This document shows, piece after piece, positions 1-8,771 of a stretch of DNA of 62,046 nt. The position numbers and the translations under genes were made by a program. The notes beneath the pieces are model-generated. The model did not search any database, was not told where the DNA came from, and saw only the letters and a program-made list of their open reading frames with translations. The DNA comes from Geodermatophilus chilensis (GTDB taxonomy: Bacteria > Actinomycetota > Actinomycetes > Mycobacteriales > Geodermatophilaceae). Within the stretch, counting starts at the first letter, position 1, and the number at the start of each line of letters is the position of its first letter. The stretch spans positions 1-62,046 of the forward strand of contig NZ_NVPT01000006.1 in the NCBI RefSeq assembly GCF_002802985.1, given 5' to 3'.

Positions 1-498
1 TAGGTGAGCAGGAGGACAGATAGTTGATGTGGTGAGGCGTCGGGCTGGAGATACGGTGAGCGGCTGAAGATACGCGGGAGGGGTGGTGGGCGGCGTCAGG
101 TGTGTATGAGCGTCAGCGCTCAGGAGGGCCCACGTCGTCCGCGCCAGTCCAAGGGACCGCGCCGGCCACCGACCACCCAGGTGGAGAAGGCGCCGTCAGT
201 GGTGTGCCGCGGAAGACGGCTGCGGTCCGCTGACCGGAGAGGAGGACGTGGTCCTCCCCGAGTGCGCTTCCAGCAGCCGGGGGCTTTCCTCAGTGCACAC
301 CCCACGGCGCTGCACAGAGAGCCTCGCGGGGGCGCCGTACAGGCTGATGCGAGGCACCGTGGTGTCGCACTCACGGTCAGCAGGACCTCGCGGCCAGCCC
401 TACAGTCACAACAGCCGTACGGTCGTCCGGATGTGACGACTCCGTGAGGCCACTCCCGGTCACCGCGCACATGTGCTCCCAGGTGCAGGAGGCTCGCC
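1..498. other. Upstream region without a convincing gene
   Basis: No reading frame here looks like a real protein: the open frames are arginine/proline-rich, lack a good ribosome binding site and match no family I recognise. The segment is less GC-biased in codon position than the following operon. It probably carries the promoter of the nuo-type operon. An AGGAGG at about 487-492 is the ribosome binding site of the first operon gene. Confidence 0.5.
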
Positions 499-840
499 AT
501 GATCGCCGTCTTGTCCCTGTTCATCGTCGTCATGGCGGGCGTCGCAGGGCTCTACGCCGCTTCGTTCGCGATGCGCACGACGAAGCAGCAGGCCGCCGTC
601 CTGCCGTTCGAGTCCGGACTGCCACCGCTGCAGCACGCCGTCTCGCGCTATCACGTGCGTTGGTACGCGGTGACGATCCTCTTCCTCGCCTTCGACATGG
701 AGATGATCTTCATGTACCCGTGGGCCGTCGTCGTCGCGGAGATGGGCGCGCAAGCCGTCATCGAGATGTTCGGCTTCCTCGCGGTCCTGCTCGTCGGCGT
801 GACCTACGTCTGGCGTGAGGGCGCGCTGCGATGGACCTGA
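499..840 (+). CDS. nuoA: NADH-quinone oxidoreductase subunit A (NuoA-like)
   Basis: A 113-residue membrane protein with three predicted transmembrane helices (about residues 2-22, 55-78, 84-105). The NuoA hallmarks are visible: a first-loop segment with LPFESGLPP, and FLAFDMEMIFMYPW in helix 2 that matches the conserved acidic, aromatic-rich FDxExxFLYPW stretch. NuoA lies at the junction between membrane and peripheral arms of complex I and helps form the quinone pathway. AGGAGG lies 7-12 bases upstream of the ATG. It is the first gene of an eight-gene operon and overlaps the next gene by 10 bp. Confidence 0.93.
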   Translation: MIAVLSLFIVVMAGVAGLYAASFAMRTTKQQAAVLPFESGLPPLQHAVSRYHVRWYAVTILFLAFDMEMIFMYPWAVVVAEMGAQAVIEMFGFLAVLLVGVTYVWREGALRWT

Positions 841-1907
841 TCGGCCGACTGCGGAGCTGGGCGTTGGCCCGGCCGCGGGTTCTGCTCGTCGACGCTCCGG
901 GCACGACAGGACTCCGCTGGTCCCTCGAAGCCGAACTGGACCGTCGCGGGTGGACTCACGCCGTGTCCCCGGCGCAAGCCGACCTCGTCGTGATCCTGGG
1001 CGAGCCGGGACCGCAACTCGCGCATGCCGTCGACGTGGTGTGGAGCCAGGTTCCGGCGCCCCGGCATCGGATGTACGTGCGCGACGGCGTCGATGTCGCC
1101 GTCGCCCTCGACCGGGGCGTGCAGGACCTGCTCGGGAGGGCAGGGTCGTCAGCGCGCGAGGTCGGGCGGCCGCCTCCGGCTTCGTTCCTGGGCAGTGACG
1201 ACGGTGGTCACGAGGGCATGGACCACGGTGGTGGTCACGAGGGGCACCACATGCACCACGGCGGTGAAGTCGCCGGGCTGCCGATGGCGATGACGGGGCC
1301 CGACCGGGACGGACTCGAGCTCGACGTCCTCAAGGTCTCCCTGGGGCCCGTCCATCCCGGTTGGCCGACCGGCCTCGTCCTCCGCGCCGAGCTGCAGGGC
1401 GACGTCCTCGCCGGCGCCGACCTCTCGTGGATCGACGCGGAGTCCGTGTCCGAGGTGGGGCCGTCCCTCGACGCTCGACAGTCCGCGCTCGACCATCTCG
1501 CCCGCTTCCTCGTCGTGGCCGGCTGGCCCACGGCCGCCCGGGACGCCCGCAGGGCCCGGGACGGGCTCCGCTCCGAGGAGCATGCTCGGCGGACGGCCGC
1601 CCAACGGCTCGCCGAGGAGGTGACCGGCAAGGTCCTCGGCTCTCGCACGCTGGCCTGGGCGATCGCCGGCGCGGGCCGTTCGCAGCGTGACCGAGGCACA
1701 TCCTCCGCCCACCCGGTGCTGGGCCGCCTGCGCCACTGGTGCGACCTGGCGGTCGGTCGGGACTCCGCCAACCCGCCCACACCCTCGCTGCAGGATCTCG
1801 CTGCCTCGCTCGAGGGCACCGAGATCGGGACGGCGCGGCTGATCGTTGCCAGCCTCGGCCTCGACCCCGTCACCTCACAGCGGGTCCCGGAGTCGGCCGG
1901 TGCGTGA
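831..1907 (+). CDS. Degenerate NuoB-NuoD-like fusion protein
   Basis: A 358-residue soluble protein in the position normally held by NuoB, NuoC and NuoD. Residues about 1-100 resemble NuoB: SPAQADLVVILGEP matches the family SPRQADxMIVAGT stretch, followed by VWSQVPAPRHRMYV like the YDQMPEPKWVISM segment. The cysteines that bind cluster N2 are absent; the whole protein has a single Cys (in RHWCDL). A linker at 127-143 has seven histidines in 17 residues. From about 168 VSLGPVHPGWPTG resembles the NuoD N-terminus (NMGPQHPxTHG), but the rest of the 49-kDa subunit is missing. It cannot carry the normal N2 electron path. Function unknown; perhaps a structural cap or metal-binding adaptor on the membrane arm. 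Confidence 0.7.
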   Translation: MDLIGRLRSWALARPRVLLVDAPGTTGLRWSLEAELDRRGWTHAVSPAQADLVVILGEPGPQLAHAVDVVWSQVPAPRHRMYVRDGVDVAVALDRGVQDLLGRAGSSAREVGRPPPASFLGSDDGGHEGMDHGGGHEGHHMHHGGEVAGLPMAMTGPDRDGLELDVLKVSLGPVHPGWPTGLVLRAELQGDVLAGADLSWIDAESVSEVGPSLDARQSALDHLARFLVVAGWPTAARDARRARDGLRSEEHARRTAAQRLAEEVTGKVLGSRTLAWAIAGAGRSQRDRGTSSAHPVLGRLRHWCDLAVGRDSANPPTPSLQDLAASLEGTEIGTARLIVASLGLDPVTSQRVPESAGA

Positions 1908-2850
1908 GACGGCGACGGCGACGCTGCCCGAGGCCTGGGGCGTGCTGCCGGCCGTCCTGGCCGTCGCCCTCGTCGGCGTCGGTCTGGGCCTGGTGGTGGC
2001 CTCGGTCGACCGCGCCGTCCTCGCCGGCCGGACCCGCGGGGCGGTCCTCGAGCCGCTGCGGGAGGGGGCTCGCCTCCTGCTGGAGCAGCGGCGGACGACC
2101 CTGGCGCCGGACAGGCTCCTGTGGCGGCTCGGCTGCGTGGCGGTGCCGGTGCTGGCGCTGCTGTCCCTCGCCGTCGTCCCGGTGGGCGGCCGCACGCTCT
2201 GGTCCACCAGCGCGGACCTCGTGTGGTTCAACGCGATGGAAGCGCTGCTGTGGGCCGCGATCTGGCTGGTGGGTTGGGGACCCAACGCCTTCCACGCGCT
2301 GGCCGGCGGCTACCGGTTCCTGGCCCAGGGGCTCGCCTACGAGCTGCCGCTGATGTTCGCCCTGGTCACCGTTGGCGTGGCCGCCGGCTCCCTGCGCACC
2401 ACCGACGTGCTCGCCGCCCAGGACGGCCTGTGGTTCGTGGTGACCATGCCGGTGGCCTTCGCGGTCTTCGTCGCCAGCGCGGCCGCCTTCGCGTTCTGGG
2501 GGCCCTTCGCCGCCCCGACCTCGGCGGACATCGCCGGCGGAGTGACCTCCGAGCTGTCGGGGGTGGACAGGCTGCTGGTCGAGGCCGGGCGGGGCGTCTT
2601 CCTCGGCGCCACCGCGGCGATGGCCGCGGCCCTCTTCCTCGGCGGGGACTCCGGACCCTGGCTGCCCGGGCCGCTGTGGCAGCTGCTCAAGACGCTGGCT
2701 GTGGTGACGGCGCTGGTGTGGGTCGGCCGGAGGCTGCCCGTGCTGCGCCCCGACCGGACCGTGGAGGTCGGCTGGATGGTCCTGGTGCCGTTGACGCTGG
2801 TGCAGGCGCTGGTCGTCGCCGTGCTCGTCCTGAGCGGGTTCTACGCGTGA
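1900..2850 (+). CDS. nuoH: NADH-quinone oxidoreductase subunit H (NuoH-like)
   Basis: A 316-residue membrane protein with about eight transmembrane segments. The family cues are an early amphipathic stretch EPLREGARLLLEQRRTTLAPDRLLW, like the NuoH QPxADxxKLxxKE segment, followed by paired hydrophobic helices ending near the conserved basic pump-module region. NuoH anchors the peripheral arm and forms part of the quinone chamber. The start is taken as the GTG at 1900, which overlaps the TGA of the preceding gene; upstream starts in the same frame lie deep inside that gene. The N-terminus is shorter and more divergent than in canonical NuoH, in keeping with the altered NuoB/D partner. Confidence 0.85.
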   Translation: MRETATATLPEAWGVLPAVLAVALVGVGLGLVVASVDRAVLAGRTRGAVLEPLREGARLLLEQRRTTLAPDRLLWRLGCVAVPVLALLSLAVVPVGGRTLWSTSADLVWFNAMEALLWAAIWLVGWGPNAFHALAGGYRFLAQGLAYELPLMFALVTVGVAAGSLRTTDVLAAQDGLWFVVTMPVAFAVFVASAAAFAFWGPFAAPTSADIAGGVTSELSGVDRLLVEAGRGVFLGATAAMAAALFLGGDSGPWLPGPLWQLLKTLAVVTALVWVGRRLPVLRPDRTVEVGWMVLVPLTLVQALVVAVLVLSGFYA

Positions 2851-2860
2851 GGAGGGCCGG

Positions 2861-3442
2861 ATGCTGACCGATCTCTCGGGCTGGGTGATCGCCACGGTCG
2901 CCGTGCTGGGCCTGCTGTCAGTGGCGTCGGGGGTCGCGGTCTTCGTCGTGGACTCGATGGCTCGGGCGACGTTCGCGTTGCTCGGGTCGTTCCTGGCCGT
3001 CGCCGGTGTCCTGCTGGCGTTCGACCTGGTGTACCTGGCCGTGGTGACGGCGCTGATGATGACGATCGAGATGGCGATCATGGCCGTCTTCATGGTCATG
3101 TTCATGATGAACCCGGCCGGGCTCATGCCGATGACGATGGTGCACAACCCGAAGGGCTCGGCCGTGGTCGGTGCGGGGGCGTTCGTCGTCCTGACCGTGG
3201 GGATCTGGACGATCGACTGGCCGGCCCGCCGCGGGCAGCTGCCCACGGACAGCACCCGTCAGCTCGGCGAGGCAGTCATGGGCAGTCACATGCTGGTCAT
3301 GCTGATCGTCGGCATCGGGCTGTTCGCCACGATCCTGGCCGGGACCGTGCTGGCGACCGCGCGCGGTCGCTACGACCGGTTCGGCGCAGACCTCGCCGCA
3401 CGGCGACCCGACGACCCGGTCCCCGGGGGGCTGCCCCGATGA
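2861..3442 (+). CDS. nuoJ: NADH-quinone oxidoreductase subunit J (NuoJ-like)
   Basis: A 193-residue protein with five predicted helices. The early helix-rich region (VASGVAVFVVDSMARATFALLGSF, then AFDLVYLAVVTALMMTIEMAIMAVFMVMF) matches NuoJ, which packs between NuoA/H and NuoK; a Met-rich loop follows. The start is the ATG at 2861 preceded by GGAGGG six bases upstream. The last codon overlaps the nuoK start by 4 bp, so translation is likely coupled. The charged C-terminal tail after the last helix is cytoplasmic-type and short. Confidence 0.88.
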   Translation: MLTDLSGWVIATVAVLGLLSVASGVAVFVVDSMARATFALLGSFLAVAGVLLAFDLVYLAVVTALMMTIEMAIMAVFMVMFMMNPAGLMPMTMVHNPKGSAVVGAGAFVVLTVGIWTIDWPARRGQLPTDSTRQLGEAVMGSHMLVMLIVGIGLFATILAGTVLATARGRYDRFGADLAARRPDDPVPGGLPR

Positions 3443-3756
3443 CCGCGGAGCTGGTCCTGCAGATCGTGCTGACCGTCGCCGCCGGCCTGATCGGCGTCGG
3501 CCTGTTCGGCGCGCTGTCCCAGCAGTCGATCGTCATGGTGATGATGGGCCTGGAGCTCGTCCTCAACGGGGTGCTGCTGGCCGGGGGAGCGGCCTGGTTC
3601 TCCCTGGCTCCGGAGCTGCCCGACGCGCAGATGTTGGCCGTCGTCGCGCTGGTGGTCATGGCCGTGGAGATGGCGATGGGCTTCGCGGTGACCATCGCCA
3701 TCTACCGGGCCCGCCAGGTGGACATGGTCGACATGGCCACGGACCTGAACGGATGA
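3439..3756 (+). CDS. nuoK: NADH-quinone oxidoreductase subunit K (NuoK-like)
   Basis: A 105-residue protein with three transmembrane helices, the usual NuoK length. The helix-2 stretch VMVMMGLELVLNGVLLAGG carries the conserved membrane glutamate (MGLELxLNxxNL), and helix 3 has a second glutamate in VVMAVEMAMGFAVTIAIYR, both part of the proton path of complex I and of the related MnhC/MrpC subunits. It overlaps nuoJ and nuoL by 4 bp each. Because the redox arm is missing nearby, the Mrp-type antiporter relationship should be kept in mind, but the gene order H-J-K-L-M-N is that of complex I. Confidence 0.92.
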   Translation: MTAELVLQIVLTVAAGLIGVGLFGALSQQSIVMVMMGLELVLNGVLLAGGAAWFSLAPELPDAQMLAVVALVVMAVEMAMGFAVTIAIYRARQVDMVDMATDLNG

Positions 3757-5615
3757 GCGCCGCTCTCGCCGCGCTCGTGCTGGTACCCGCGGTCAGCGGG
3801 GTGGGGCTGCTGCTCTCCGGACGCCGAGCCGACCGCGTCGCCGGACTCCTCGCAGTCGCCGTCACCGCGGTCGCCCTGCTGCTCGCCGCCACCGTGGCGA
3901 TCGCGCGACCGCGGCTGTCGCTGCCCTTCCTCGGCGTCGTCGAGGGCGGTGACCTCCGGCTGGCGGTCGACGGGTTGTCGGCCGTCCTGGTGCTGCTCGT
4001 CGCGGGGATCGCGCTGCTGGTCACCGGCTTCGCGGTCGCCGACCTCCCGGACGACGCCGCACGCGGTCGGTTCTTCGGATACCTGCTGCTGTTCGTCGCG
4101 GCCATGCTCGCCACCGTCACCGCGGCCACGGTTCCCGCGTTGCTGCTTGCCTGGGAGGTCATGGGCGCGACCTCCTACGCGCTCATCGGCTTCCGGTGGG
4201 AGGAGCGCGGGAAGCTGGCGGCCGGCACGCGGGCGTTCGTCACCACCCGAGCCGGCGACCTCGGGTTGTACGTGGCGGCGGGGGCCGCGCTGGCGGCCAC
4301 CGGCAGCCTCGTGCTCGCCGACCTGGACACGGCCGAGGGGGGCTGGGCGGACCTCGCCGCCGCCGGCGTGCTCGTCGCCGCGCTCGGCAAGTCGGCACAG
4401 CTCCCGTTCTCGGCCTGGCTCTCGGCGGCCATGCAGGGCCCCAGCCCGGTCAGTGCCCTGCTGCACTCGGCGACGATGGTCGCCGCCGGCGGGTACCTGT
4501 TGCTCCGGGTGCAGCCGCTGCTGGCGACGACCGGCTGGGCAGCGACCGCGGCCGCGTGGGCCGGGGCGCTCACGGCGCTGGTCCTGGGGGCGGTCGCCGT
4601 CGCGCAGTCCGACCTCAAGCAGCTGCTGGCCGCGAGCACCGCTGCGCAGATCGGCTTCGTCGTGCTGGCCGCGGGGGTCGGGGCCACCGCCGGAGGGACC
4701 GCGCAGCTGGTGGCCCACGCCGCGGTGAAGGCCGGGCTGTTCGTCGCGGCCGGCGCGTGGCTGACCGCCCTGGGCACGAAGCAGTTGGCCGGGCTGCGCG
4801 GCGCCGCCCGTCGGTACCCGGGGGTCGGGGCCGCGGCGACCGTCGCCGCCCTCGCCCTGGCCGGTGTGCCACCGCTGTCGCTGTGGGCGACGAAGGACGA
4901 GGTGCTCGCGGGCGTGCAGGGGACGGCGCTGACCGTGGTGGGGCTCGCAGCCGCGGTGATCTCGGCGGTCTACGCCGGGCGGATCCTCGCCGTCGTCCTG
5001 GCCCGGCCCACGGAGGAGGAGGCCCTCGACGAGGAGGAGCCGGGAACCCGCCGGGTGCCGGTGCTCACCCGGACGGCGGCCGGCGTCCTCGCGGTGTTCG
5101 CCGCGGGGCTCGGTGTCTTCGCCCTGCCCGCCGTGGCGGATCCCTTGGAGGACCTGCTGGGCGCGCAGGGGGAGCCGTCCCCAGGTCTCGGAGATCTGCT
5201 GCTCTCCGGAGGGCTCGCCGTGGCGGCGCTGGCGCTGACCGTCGCCGTGAGCCGGGCCCGGCCGGCCTTCGTCCGGGCCGTCGAGCGGAGCCCGCTGTCC
5301 TCCTGGGCCGGGCTCGGACACCTGCTGTCACCCCGGCCTGCCCTCGCCGTGGCCCGACTGCTGGCCGCCGTGGACGACCGCGGGATCGACCGGGCGGTCA
5401 CCGCTGTGGCCTCCGGGACCCGGCGGGCCGCGGCGGTCTCGGCCCGTACCGACGCCGGCCTGGTGGACGGCGCCGTCCGGGGGATCGCGCGAGCCGTCCG
5501 CCGGGCCGGTGCCGCGGCCCGCCGACCGCAGACGGGGCTGCTGCACCAGTACTACGCCCAGGCCGCCGCCGGCCTCGGCGTCCTGCTCGTCCTGCTGCTC
5601 GTGGTGCGCCAGTGA
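3753..5615 (+). CDS. nuoL: NADH-quinone oxidoreductase subunit L (NuoL-like)
   Basis: A 620-residue antiporter-like subunit, of usual NuoL size, with about 15 helices. Seen in order: LLAWEVMGATSYALIGF with the key helix-5 glutamate, the GLYV helix, ALGKSAQLPFSAWLSAAMQGPSPVSALLHSATMVAAGGYLL with the conserved Lys and the HSATMV helix-8 histidine, and SDLKQLLAASTAAQIGFV. The C-terminal part has an Arg-rich stretch and a last helix GLGVLLVLLLVV after HQYYAQ, as expected for the anchor of the lateral helix. The start overlaps nuoK by 4 bp (ATGA). It is the distal proton-pumping module. Confidence 0.95.
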   Translation: MSAALAALVLVPAVSGVGLLLSGRRADRVAGLLAVAVTAVALLLAATVAIARPRLSLPFLGVVEGGDLRLAVDGLSAVLVLLVAGIALLVTGFAVADLPDDAARGRFFGYLLLFVAAMLATVTAATVPALLLAWEVMGATSYALIGFRWEERGKLAAGTRAFVTTRAGDLGLYVAAGAALAATGSLVLADLDTAEGGWADLAAAGVLVAALGKSAQLPFSAWLSAAMQGPSPVSALLHSATMVAAGGYLLLRVQPLLATTGWAATAAAWAGALTALVLGAVAVAQSDLKQLLAASTAAQIGFVVLAAGVGATAGGTAQLVAHAAVKAGLFVAAGAWLTALGTKQLAGLRGAARRYPGVGAAATVAALALAGVPPLSLWATKDEVLAGVQGTALTVVGLAAAVISAVYAGRILAVVLARPTEEEALDEEEPGTRRVPVLTRTAAGVLAVFAAGLGVFALPAVADPLEDLLGAQGEPSPGLGDLLLSGGLAVAALALTVAVSRARPAFVRAVERSPLSSWAGLGHLLSPRPALAVARLLAAVDDRGIDRAVTAVASGTRRAAAVSARTDAGLVDGAVRGIARAVRRAGAAARRPQTGLLHQYYAQAAAGLGVLLVLLLVVRQ

Positions 5616-5694
5616 CCGAGCGTGCGAGGTCCTGCAGGGATACGGCACCGTCGGACTCGACTCCGACGAGCGTCAGCGAGGAGGGGACGAGACC

Positions 5695-7302
5695 GTGCTG
5701 CTGACCGTCGTGGTCTTCCTGCCGCTCCTGGCGGCGGGTGTGCTGGTGGCCGCCCCGGGGCTGGCCGGGCGGGCGGCGATCGGGCTCTGGGTCGCCGCCT
5801 CGGCCGTGGACCTCCTGCTGGTCGGCTGGATGTGGTGGCGCTTCGAGCCCGGGACGGGCGCCTCCGGCGTCGTGGACGGCCTCGCCTACGAGGTCGACCT
5901 GCAGTGGATCCCCACCGTGGACGCCGGCTACCACATCGGCGTCGACGGCCTGTCCCTGCCGCTGCTGGCCCTCACCGGCGTGCTGTTCCTCGCCTGCGCC
6001 GTCTACTCGCTGCGCGAACCCGACCGGCCGCGCACCTACGCGGCGCTGTTCCTCTTCCTGCAGAGCGCGTGCCTGGGCACGTTCGCGTCGCTGGACCTCA
6101 TCCTGTTCTTCGTCTTCTTCGACCTGACGATCGTCGGGATGTACTTCGTCATCGCCGGGTGGGGGCACGGCGATGCCCGGCGCAGCGCGCTGAAGTTCTT
6201 CCTCTACACCTTCATCGGATCGCTGGCCCTGCTGGTCGGCTTCATCGGGCTCTTCCTCGGCAGCGAGGAACGCACCTTCGACATGGTGGCGCTGGCGGCT
6301 GACCCGCCCCTGGCCGACTCCCCACTGGCCGGCGGTCTCGTGCTGCTGGCCATCGGGCTGGGGTTGGCGGTGAAGACCCCGCTGTTCCCCTTCCACACCT
6401 GGCTGCCCGACGCGCACACCGACGCGCCTGCTGCCGGGTCGGCGGTGCTGGCCGGCATCCTGCTGAAGCTCGGCACGTACGGCTTCGTGCGGATCGCGAT
6501 GCCGATCCTGCCTGACGCGTGGCAGCGCTGGGCGATGGTCGCCGTCATCGTCGGCGTGATCAGCGTGCTGTGGGGAGCGTTCGTCGCGCTGGCGCAGACC
6601 GACGTCAAGCGGATGATCGCCTACACCTCGGTGAACCACATGGGCTACGTCCTGCTCGGCCTCGGCGCAGCCGGCCTGGTGGCCTCCGCCGACGAGGGGG
6701 CCCGGACCGTGGCCACCGTGGGCGCGATGTACCAGATGGTCAGCCACGGCCTGCTCACGGGGGCGCTGTTCCTGCTCAGCGGCTGGTTCTGGTCGCACGG
6801 GCACACCTACGCCTTCGACCGGTGGGGCGGGCTGGCCCGCCCGGCTCCGGTGTTCGCCGCCTGCCTCGCGGTCGCCGCCTTCGGCTCCCTCGGGCTGCCC
6901 GGGTTCTCCGGGTTCATCGCCGAGTTCCAGGTCTTCACCGGTGCCCTGCAGGCCACACCGGTCGCTACGGTGATCGCCGTCGTCGGCATCCTCGTGACCG
7001 CCGGACTGTTCCTGCTGGCGCTGCAGCGGCTGCTCACCGGTGACACCACCGTCCCGTCCGCCGAGCCGGAGGACGGCGGCGAGTCGGTGCGCCCGGAGGA
7101 GGAGCCGGCGCGTGCGGGTAGGGCCGTTGCGACCACCGTCCGGCCGCCGACGGCGACACGGATCCGGGACCTGCGCGGCCACGAGACGGCCTCGATCGTG
7201 CCGCTGCTCGCCCTGGCCCTGGTCCTCGGGCTCCTGCCGCGGGTCCTCCTCGACGTCCTCGAGCCGGCCGCGGCGGCGGTGGTCGAGCTGGTGGCCCGGT
7301 GA
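5695..7302 (+). CDS. nuoM: NADH-quinone oxidoreductase subunit M (NuoM-like)
   Basis: A 535-residue antiporter-like subunit with about 14 helices. Diagnostic stretches are YHIGVDGLSLPLL, FVFFDLTIVGMYF (here the helix-5 position usually Glu is in an altered FDLT context, a possible difference from FFEWMLVPMY), KTPLFPFHTWLPDAHTDAPAAGSAVLAGILLKLGTYG, TDVKRMIAYTSVNHMGY and GLPGFSGFIAEFQVF. The GTG at 5695 is preferred: GAGGAGGGG lies about ten bases upstream, and the protein then begins with its first helix. There is an 79-base gap after nuoL. A charged insert near residues 450-490 is unusual but lies in a loop. Confidence 0.94.
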   Translation: MLLTVVVFLPLLAAGVLVAAPGLAGRAAIGLWVAASAVDLLLVGWMWWRFEPGTGASGVVDGLAYEVDLQWIPTVDAGYHIGVDGLSLPLLALTGVLFLACAVYSLREPDRPRTYAALFLFLQSACLGTFASLDLILFFVFFDLTIVGMYFVIAGWGHGDARRSALKFFLYTFIGSLALLVGFIGLFLGSEERTFDMVALAADPPLADSPLAGGLVLLAIGLGLAVKTPLFPFHTWLPDAHTDAPAAGSAVLAGILLKLGTYGFVRIAMPILPDAWQRWAMVAVIVGVISVLWGAFVALAQTDVKRMIAYTSVNHMGYVLLGLGAAGLVASADEGARTVATVGAMYQMVSHGLLTGALFLLSGWFWSHGHTYAFDRWGGLARPAPVFAACLAVAAFGSLGLPGFSGFIAEFQVFTGALQATPVATVIAVVGILVTAGLFLLALQRLLTGDTTVPSAEPEDGGESVRPEEEPARAGRAVATTVRPPTATRIRDLRGHETASIVPLLALALVLGLLPRVLLDVLEPAAAAVVELVAR

Positions 7303-8771
7303 CGGGCATGTCCGGCGGCGCGGAGGCGTGGCCGGCCCTGCTGCCGGAGGCGCTGCTCCTGCTCGGCGCTGTCGGTGGGCTACTGCTCGGCCTGTGGACA
7401 CCGCAGCGCCGCCAGTGGCGGGTCCGGCTCCTGGTCACCGCTGCCTGCCTCGCCAGCGCGGCGGCCGCCGCGCTGGCGCTGCCGGGACCGGCGGAGCGCG
7501 TCTTCGAGGGCACCTGGGTCGTGGACCCCACAACCGGCGTGGTGCGGATCGTCGTCGCGCTCGGGGTGGCCGTCCTCGTCTGGATGGCCGCACCCTCCGT
7601 GGCCGGCCATCCGCGGGAGACCGAGGCCTACGTCCTGATGCTGCTCGGCGGGCTCGGCACGGTCGCACTGGCCGCCAGCGGCGACCTGCTGCTGCTCGTC
7701 GCCGCCTACCTGCTGACCAGCGTCCCGCTCTACGCCCTCGCGGGCTTCGCGAAGGACCCTCGCGGGACCGAGGCCACGATGAAGTACTACCTCATGGGCG
7801 CCTTCGTCGGCGTCCTCCTGCTGGTCGGCGTCGCCGCCCTGGTGCTCGCCTCCGGCACCACCGGCTACGTCGACCTCGCCGCGCTGCTGCCGGGTGCATC
7901 CCCGGCTCTGCTGGCCGTCGGGGTCCTCGGCGTGCTCGCCGGCGTGGCCTTCAAGGCCGGCGCCGTCCCGGTGCACTTCTGGGTGCCCGACGTGACTGCC
8001 GGGACCACTCCACCGATGGCGGCGTACATCACCACGATCCCCAAGATCGGCGCCGTCGCAGCTGCGTTCCGGCTGCTCGCCGAGCCCTTCGCCGGGCTGC
8101 CGCTCGACGTCCCGATGCTCGTCGCTGTCATCGCCGCGGTCAGCATGACCCTCGGCAACCTGGCCGCCTTCGCTCAGACCGACGTGCTCCGGCTGTTGGC
8201 CTACTCCACGATCAGCCAGGTCGGCTACCTCCTCATGGTGGTCGCAGTGGCGAGCCGCAGCGACCTCGCCGTCTCCGCCCTGGCCGTCTACCTCGCTGGC
8301 TACGCCATCACCAACATCGGCGCCTTCGCCGCCGTCGCCGCCACCCCCGCTGCGCGCACCATCACCGATTGGGCGACCGCGGTGGCGCGACACCGCTGGC
8401 TGGTGATGAGCCTCGTGGTCTGCCTGCTCGGCCTGGTGGGGACCCCACCGACGGCGGTCTTCGTCGGCAAGCTCGCCGTGTTCGTCGCCGCCTGGGACGG
8501 CGCGCTGGCGTGGCTCGTCGTCGTGGCGGCCGTGAACACCGTCGCCAGCCTCTTCTACTACCTGCGGTGGATCGCCCCCGCATTCGCCGGGGTGCCCGCC
8601 GCACCGGTCACGGCGGAGGGGCCGGTGCGCACCGGTCCCCGCACCGCGGCGGGGACGGCGCAGGAGGTCCGGGGCACGCCGGCGGTGATCCTCCACGCTG
8701 CAGCGGTGGGGTCGGTCCTCCTCGGCGTGGGCGCCGGTGTGTGGCTCAGCGTGGCGTCCGGCGCTGACTGA
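7299..8771 (+). CDS. nuoN: NADH-quinone oxidoreductase subunit N (NuoN-like)
   Basis: A 490-residue antiporter-like subunit with about 14 helices. Visible motifs: YVLMLLGGLGTVALAASGDLLLLVAAYLL, TEATMKYYLMGAF, AFKAGAVPVHFWVPDVTAGTTPPMAAYITTIPKIGA (conserved Lys and Pro-containing helices), and TDVLRLLAYSTISQVGYLLM. The family's QGW/E position in helix 5 is less clear. The GTG start overlaps the nuoM stop by 4 bp. It is the last gene of the operon; a small hairpin follows directly. Confidence 0.94.
   Translation: MTGMSGGAEAWPALLPEALLLLGAVGGLLLGLWTPQRRQWRVRLLVTAACLASAAAAALALPGPAERVFEGTWVVDPTTGVVRIVVALGVAVLVWMAAPSVAGHPRETEAYVLMLLGGLGTVALAASGDLLLLVAAYLLTSVPLYALAGFAKDPRGTEATMKYYLMGAFVGVLLLVGVAALVLASGTTGYVDLAALLPGASPALLAVGVLGVLAGVAFKAGAVPVHFWVPDVTAGTTPPMAAYITTIPKIGAVAAAFRLLAEPFAGLPLDVPMLVAVIAAVSMTLGNLAAFAQTDVLRLLAYSTISQVGYLLMVVAVASRSDLAVSALAVYLAGYAITNIGAFAAVAATPAARTITDWATAVARHRWLVMSLVVCLLGLVGTPPTAVFVGKLAVFVAAWDGALAWLVVVAAVNTVASLFYYLRWIAPAFAGVPAAPVTAEGPVRTGPRTAAGTAQEVRGTPAVILHAAAVGSVLLGVGAGVWLSVASGAD

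Follow-up and report, generated by a model that had tools for sequence, protein, structure and literature searches.

A conserved complex I relative in Geodermatophilaceae with a fused NuoB-NuoD-like subunit, lost redox sites and a possible metal trigger

What can an operon of complex I-type genes do once its NuoB- and NuoD-like parts lack the residues for passing electrons? The question is raised by a stretch of 62,046 nucleotides from Geodermatophilus chilensis (the window), whose first genes, as identified by gene calling and Pfam, form the eight-gene operon nuoA-BD-H-J-K-L-M-N (Table 1). The gene here called BD lies between nuoA and nuoH and, as a sequence-only reading of the locus had proposed, holds the place of nuoB and nuoD: its product is a NuoB-like/NuoD-like fusion.

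The BD fusion and its operon

The genes A-BD-H-J-K-L-M-N stand back to back, the BD reading frame overlaps both neighbouring genes by a few bases, and no nuoC, E, F, G or I gene was called in the operon. The window begins at the end of its contig, and the genes on the upstream side of nuoA are cut away. On the other side, nuoN is followed by an MFS transporter gene on the opposite strand and then by genes for a protein that combines purple-acid-phosphatase with F5/8-type domains, a glycosyl hydrolase 15, a short-chain dehydrogenase and a DUF427 protein; no evident metal genes are found among these downstream neighbours. The start given for nuoM was picked by a codon-model gene call.

Table 1. 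Positions of the operon, its putative operator and the parts of BD in the window
Feature	Position	Strand	Evidence or remark
Putative operator palindrome, AGCCGTAC-GGTC-GTCCGGAT	413..432	.	66 bp before nuoA
nuoA-like subunit	499..840	+	Pfam PF00507, E 3.9e-29
BD, NuoB-like/NuoD-like fusion, 358 aa	831..1907	+	Profile comparisons
Predicted NuoB-like domain of BD, residues 1-116	831..1178	+	Without N2 ligand pair
BD linker	1179..1271	+	His/Met-rich core at 1209-1259 (residues 127-143)
Predicted contracted NuoD-like domain of BD, residues 148-358	1272..1904	+	
nuoH-like subunit	1900..2850	+	Pfam PF00146, E 1e-41; quinone loop altered
nuoJ-like subunit	2861..3442	+	PF00499, E 5.3e-10
nuoK-like subunit	3439..3756	+	PF00420, E 7.7e-13
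nuoL-like antiporter subunit	3753..5615	+	PF00361, E 3.4e-47; key residues kept
nuoM-like antiporter subunit	5695..7302 (start about)	+	PF00361, E 7.4e-65 for the longer ORF 5509-7302
nuoN-like antiporter subunit	7299..8771	+	PF00361, E 1.4e-45

BD is a NuoB-fold domain fused to a contracted NuoD-fold domain. A single-sequence Pfam scan of the window protein gave zero matches, and an NCBIfam scan of three BD proteins matched NuoB models only, over some 35-55 residues, with no model spanning the whole fusion. BD was compared with NuoB and NuoD by profile and by Foldseek, the check that the sequence-only reading had suggested: a BD profile searched against the PDB found NuoB, but no NuoD chain was matched there, and the Foldseek matches, mostly to NuoB-type chains, had E values of 1.7e-3 at best, none of them under 1e-3. 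The Pfam NuoD model PF00346 matched 5 of 44 BD members, at best with E 0.013, and scored above its cut-off in seven of the eight distant members scanned. With a narrow NuoD profile, the match to BD was at first weak and C-terminal; when more diverse NuoD sequences were added, NuoD aligned over its whole length, still at an hhalign probability of 23%. As aligned, the NuoD part is contracted yet full-length, and the view that BD contains only the N-terminal start of NuoD is superseded. An AlphaFold model built from three sequences has a mean pLDDT of 56, with values below 50 at residues 108-210, which include the first strands of the NuoD part.

Conservation and residue changes

BD matches occurred in 45 of the 112 genomes of the organism's own family, Geodermatophilaceae, and in 28 of 394 genomes drawn from the class. 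One of the latter (G424) was discarded; its locus, L058, is a chance match (E 7.7e-4) to a protein that is penicillin-binding-like by eye. A profile of the NuoD part matched 35 of 396 genomes drawn from the phylum and 12 of 99 from the order of G372, and a pattern-based scan of genome contigs confirmed two BD loci. By tblastn, the order nuoA-BD-H-J-K-L-M-N is present in all 22 nearer loci chosen (20 taken mainly for their long contigs and the two from the pattern-based scan; nuoN of L002 is cut by the contig end) and in all 12 distant loci chosen, so that the tight operon seen in the window is retained in 34 of 34. Because BD is conserved in so many family genomes and this gene order is held throughout, it is no artefact, and a sequencing error or pseudogene is rejected. 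In a NuoM tree, the NuoM of all 35 BD sets form one clade beside canonical actinobacterial NuoM (support 0.74).

A canonical NuoD (PF00346) is also encoded in 68 of 70 BD genomes, including the window's own. The two exceptions are G486 (L049, L073), a 100% complete genome of 3.1 Mb that has a BD operon and no canonical NuoD match to PF00346, and G070, a draft of 520 contigs for which the same holds. Two BD operons are present in each of two genomes, G498 (L071 and L072) and G682 (L170 and L171).

The residues required for electron transfer were surveyed in 48 full-length nearer relatives of BD, leaving aside partial, frame-broken or N-containing copies (L012, L013, L015, L019, L025, L039 and L017, and both pieces of L024 and of L050). 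None of the 48 has a CC pair before the NuoD part, where 0-3 Cys occur; the N2 ligand set is therefore gone, as had been read from the window copy, and homologues with an intact pair, which would have marked that copy as defective, were not among them. The whole protein contains 0-5 Cys in these relatives, and 1 in the window copy; with such numbers, the NuoD-like part lacks the Cys ligands of the NiFe centre of an energy-converting [NiFe] hydrogenase. Where canonical NuoD has the motif GPQHPSTHG, the window BD has GPVHPGWPTG, and the quinone-site His at the HG position is absent in 48 of 48, the residues after WP being TG, AG, PG, SG, DA or GG. With both Fe-S and quinone residues missing in the nearer relatives, the earlier conclusion that BD cannot pass electrons in the normal way is upheld.

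The membrane subunits were compared at 35 BD loci (23 nearer and 12 distant), with letters taken from an alignment with L132, at positions in E. coli numbering that we take to belong to the quinone side of NuoH and NuoJ and to the proton channels of NuoL, NuoM and NuoN; 11 hand-chosen canonical loci (7 for NuoJ) served as controls. On the quinone side, NuoH E241 is replaced by Arg in 34 of 35 BD loci and E218 is lost in all 35, both residues being kept in 11 of 11 canonical copies, and Tyr59 in TM3 of NuoJ is Met in 35 of 35, against Tyr in 7 of 7 canonical copies. Other NuoH carboxylates are partly retained: E228 in 34 of 35 BD loci, E220 as Asp or Glu in all 35 and D213 in 13. The carboxylate path is thus changed, not erased. 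E157 of NuoH is kept in 22 of the 23 nearer and 2 of the 12 distant loci. In the antiporter subunits, NuoL E144, K229 and K399 and NuoM K234, K265 and E407 are all retained in 35 of 35, with NuoM E144 present as Asp in 23 of 23 nearer and 6 of 12 distant loci, and K217 of NuoN is Glu in 3 of the 12 distant loci. A separate observation concerns E133 in TM5 of NuoN, which is Leu or Val in all 34 BD loci with an aligned residue and Glu in 11 of 11 canonical copies.

Taken together, these changes indicate that the redox/quinone end is disrupted in BD as well as in NuoH/NuoJ and that the proton-channel end is largely kept. As far as sequence comparison goes, there is good evidence that the BD complex is homologous to complex I and that its redox sites are lost. 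The lost catalytic residues could also be expected of a decaying second nuo cluster or pseudogene set, but the same eight genes in the same order at every locus compared, the single NuoM clade and the retained antiporter residues speak against decay, which we hold to be extremely improbable. A different explanation, put forward in the sequence-only reading, makes BD a dock or adaptor for an unlinked electron donor (of the F420, ferredoxin or hydrogenase type), with the complex still acting as a redox pump. Relatives of complex I do employ other donors. The N2 cysteine pair and the quinone-site His are missing in 48 of 48 nearer relatives, however, so there are no Fe-S or quinone residues for a donor to feed; moreover, the quinone loop of NuoH is altered, and no F420-, ferredoxin- or hydrogenase-type partner family appears in the top-25 lists of flank families. 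The donor proposal is not supported, and we consider it very improbable.

A metal-binding-like linker, often among metal genes

Judged by its composition, the BD linker looks metal-binding. In the window it is short yet His-dense, and the seven His in 17 residues that had been counted there are confirmed and were equalled by one of 20000 shuffles; a tandem-repeat search found no array in it, and a Pfam scan no PF19335. Across the 48 full-length copies, the linker measures 52 to 286 residues and contains 0 to 45 His (median 12.5). Of the two traits whose conservation the sequence-only reading had put in question, the absence of the CC pair is thus constant among these copies, but the His content varies. 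Eight of the 48 members have three His or fewer, so not every member can depend on a His linker; L048 has none and L044 and L056 have one each, which implies that the linker repeat is not needed by all. Several linkers consist of tandem repeats, for example MDHGGGHEG or MDHSGMDHST, and that of L049 (989-1566) is a coding tandem array of 19.3 copies of a 30-base unit with 96% match. In four of eight distant members scanned (L161-L164), the linker includes the heavy-metal-binding domain PF19335, with scores of 44.5-94.9 bits against a cut-off of 23.6 and two stretches in L164, alongside similar His/Met repeats. Met/His repeats occur in copper-resistance proteins, and the MDHxGM-like repeats of BD resemble them; in BD, these repeats and PF19335 are placed between the NuoB-like and NuoD-like domains.

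The halves of BD fall on separate contigs in several draft genomes (G010, G013, G014, G020 and G030 among them), as if the assemblies break in linker repeat arrays. At two loci, L024 (903-1523 and 1336-2139) and L050 (1501-2367 and 1575-2648, with a run of unknown residues there), the BD reading frame changes within the repeat, giving two overlapping frames; these frame breaks probably reflect repeat slippage or assembly error.

Many BD loci, though not all, sit among copper or metal genes, including those for DUF305 proteins, copper-type ATPases, multicopper oxidases and SmtB/ArsR regulators. In the flanks of the 22 nearer loci, DUF305 (17) and ArsR-type HTH_5 (10) are the commonest families, followed by DUF4142 (9), rhodanese (6), HMA (5) and, each counted in one half of the loci, multicopper oxidase (4, second half) and DUF326 (3, first half); this Pfam tally covers 216 of 225 proteins, the 9 left out being mostly cut at stretch ends, and takes the top 25 families of each half. 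For ten chosen neighbours, NCBIfam models of an ArsR/SmtB metalloregulator, CopM, an F510_1955-type protein and a heavy-metal/copper ATPase were matched above cut-off and those of a CueO-like oxidase and a Csp1-like protein below it, while three neighbours had no match and one matched unrelated models only, weakly. Among the best 150 DUF305 matches, one lies within 20 kb of BD in at least 33 of 70 genomes, compared with 0 of 68 for canonical NuoD in the same genome set, a figure that is likewise a lower bound; the remaining 37 BD genomes, including the window's, have no DUF305 within 20 kb among these 150. Loci with and without a nearby DUF305 do not differ significantly in linker His count (p 0.11) and do differ in MxH units (p 0.004), kinship being ignored in both comparisons. 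Of ten chosen genes upstream of nuoA at ten loci, only two are metal-related, one for a metal ATPase (L068) and one for a plastocyanin-like protein (L076).

Around the distant loci, the 74 flank proteins include P-type ATPases most often (9), then HMA (5), DUF305 (3), multicopper oxidase (3) and CopD (2). A P-type ATPase lies within 10 kb of BD in 16 of 31 distant genomes, against 0.88 expected by even spread, in a test run on 45 of the matches listed, a selection made by eye that took in those close to BD on its contig and others. The association is found in 14 of the 17 genomes of family f58 and in 2 of the 14 distant genomes outside it. Seven ATPases of distant loci were typed: for six, the copper model gives the highest score of the metal subfamilies, although these copper-type ATPases also exceed the cadmium subfamily cut-off, at lower scores, and the seventh, that of L180 in G767, a genome outside f58, is of the calcium type. 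We regard the metal link of the BD operon as strong for some clades.

Regulatory DNA before nuoA was compared as well. A palindrome of consensus AYCCGKAC-N4-GTMCGGRT, allowing up to two mismatches within 250 bp before nuoA, is present at 16 of 29 nearer loci and in 0.3% or less of shuffled upstream DNA, the value for the nearer loci being 0.2%, and 13 of the 16 sites end 62-71 bp before nuoA. The same search found it at 1 of 23 other loci and at none of the 19 distant or 10 canonical nuoA loci. For the window palindrome taken alone, the chance estimate is a site in 6 of 100 shuffles. The organism's own genome (5.51 Mb) has four sites with at most one mismatch, that of the window among them, and a reversed-pattern control has one. 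A second site, on contig C348, precedes the likely start of the closest SmtB-like gene by 22 bp, and the product of this gene shares 73% identity with the regulator that stands before nuoA in G088. A third, on C74, lies not before but behind its gene, the second closest SmtB-like one, 15 bp beyond the stop. The window operon therefore has a rare site in common with the surroundings of two metalloregulator genes. At nearer loci, an SmtB/ArsR-like gene lies directly before nuoA on the same strand in 6 of 22 (L003, L061, L062, L064, L065 and L069), and on the opposite strand in L072.

Three further observations concern these sites. The 11-kb contig C74 (L191, 1-11048) encodes two ArsR-type regulators, cation efflux, ZIP and SCO1/SenC proteins and a P-type ATPase with a cupredoxin domain. 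The fourth own-genome site (L193:1501-1520, that is G000:C103:2862-2881) stands 43 bp before a 195-aa gene of no known metal role, and is possibly a further regulon member or a chance site. In L061 (at 5813) and L003 (at 7850), a nuoA-like palindrome with three mismatches precedes conserved membrane genes on the opposite strand, DUF305-like by eye, as if these belonged to the same regulon as nuoA.

A possible metal trigger and its alternatives

A metal-regulated cap had been the other option of the sequence-only reading, and it is the one that we favour, given the His/Met linker, PF19335 in some distant members, the metal neighbours and the palindrome shared with SmtB-like genes, although these features do not extend to all loci. 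BD would cap the NuoH end of the membrane arm, at the place of the quinone module of complex I, and the linker would face the cytosol close to what was the quinone chamber. There it may act as a metal sensor or loader; the metal bound would most likely be Cu(I), because of the copper-gene company. Linker-bound metal would then replace quinone reduction, opening the E-channel and the antiporter chain, and with metal as the trigger the complex would move protons (or H+ against a cation or metal) with metal load. In Geodermatophilaceae, an SmtB/ArsR-type repressor would control the operon. For the window operon, we lean slightly towards this account, that is, towards a redox-silent complex I relative in which linker metal has taken over the trigger from quinone reduction and protons are moved under metal load.

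Since a redox drive is missing, we expect the complex either to spend the proton gradient or to gate it, in metal export or in metal-gated pH or ion balance, and we judge this likelier than pumping. More tentative, and in our estimate rather doubtful, is the wider proposal that metal binding in place of quinone reduction drives or gates the E-channel and antiporters in a proton-coupled copper/metal exporter or metal-gated proton conductor that is widespread in Actinomycetota. Isolated complex I antiporter modules are reported to conduct protons (PMC11496545), and pumping has been placed in the antiporter-like subunits of a membrane arm related to Mrp (PMC7613608).

Two other readings compete with the metal trigger. 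The BD complex could be a pH or ion antiporter of the Mrp type, exchanging H+ against Na+ or K+ and found in stress islands by chance, with the linker as a regulatory or buffering tail. The retained antiporter residues, the few or zero linker His of some members and the many loci without DUF305 among the best 150 matches would all fit, but by itself this explanation leaves PF19335 in the linker and the palindrome common to SmtB-like genes unaccounted for, and we think it improbable. Alternatively, the complex could be a proton-driven metal exporter, in which metal from the linker or a chaperone enters a BD-NuoH chamber and is expelled by means of protons passing through L/M/N. Such an exporter would agree with the many loci in metal-gene company, the metal-binding-like linker and the lost quinone residues. 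Against it, copper-type ATPases already adjoin BD at several f58 loci and some linkers are almost His-free; we rate it as distinctly unlikely.

The BD complex differs from each of the systems that it resembles. With respiratory complex I (NDH-1, nuoA-N), it has in common subunits A, H, J, K, L, M and N, the NuoB and NuoD folds and the antiporter residues of NuoL and NuoM; in contrast to complex I, its NuoB and NuoD are fused and shortened, without the N2 cysteine pair or the quinone His, the quinone side of NuoH and NuoJ is altered, no NuoC, E, F, G or I gene was called in the window operon, and a His/Met-rich or PF19335-bearing linker is present. In Ehr and group 4 energy-converting hydrogenase-type complexes, a NuoD-like subunit without a working catalytic centre sits on antiporter modules, but in BD the Fe-S ligands of NuoB are gone as well and the two subunits are fused around the linker. 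Mrp antiporters operate without a redox cofactor. The complex I membrane arm is related to them (PMC7613608), and the antiporter-type modules are common to both systems, whereas the BD complex additionally has NuoA, NuoH and the NuoB-NuoD cap. The Streptomyces nuo2 set is described in PMC8388888 as a second, partial nuo set beside a full nuoA-N operon, with nuoI2 and nuoB2 present and nuoD2 apart from the cluster; on that description it is a different cluster, and second PF00346 matches in such genomes are located elsewhere than BD. The engineered complex I antiporter modules of PMC11496545 likewise work without a redox arm, but these were cut in the laboratory, whereas the BD operon is a natural, conserved eight-gene set. 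The main text of a copper-proteome paper (PMC2928746) contains none of the terms NADH, complex I, DUF305 or histidine. Among the titles listed by searches of the open-licence literature, none was on a BD-type complex.

The main unsolved problem of complex I is how chemistry at the quinone site moves protons at a distance, in the membrane arm. The BD complex occurs naturally and is conserved; it retains the membrane arm but not the redox and quinone sites, may possess a metal trigger instead, and would allow coupling to be studied without electron transfer. If the metal trigger is true, the BD complex would be a large new component of bacterial metal handling, one that sequence annotation would file under NADH dehydrogenase subunits.
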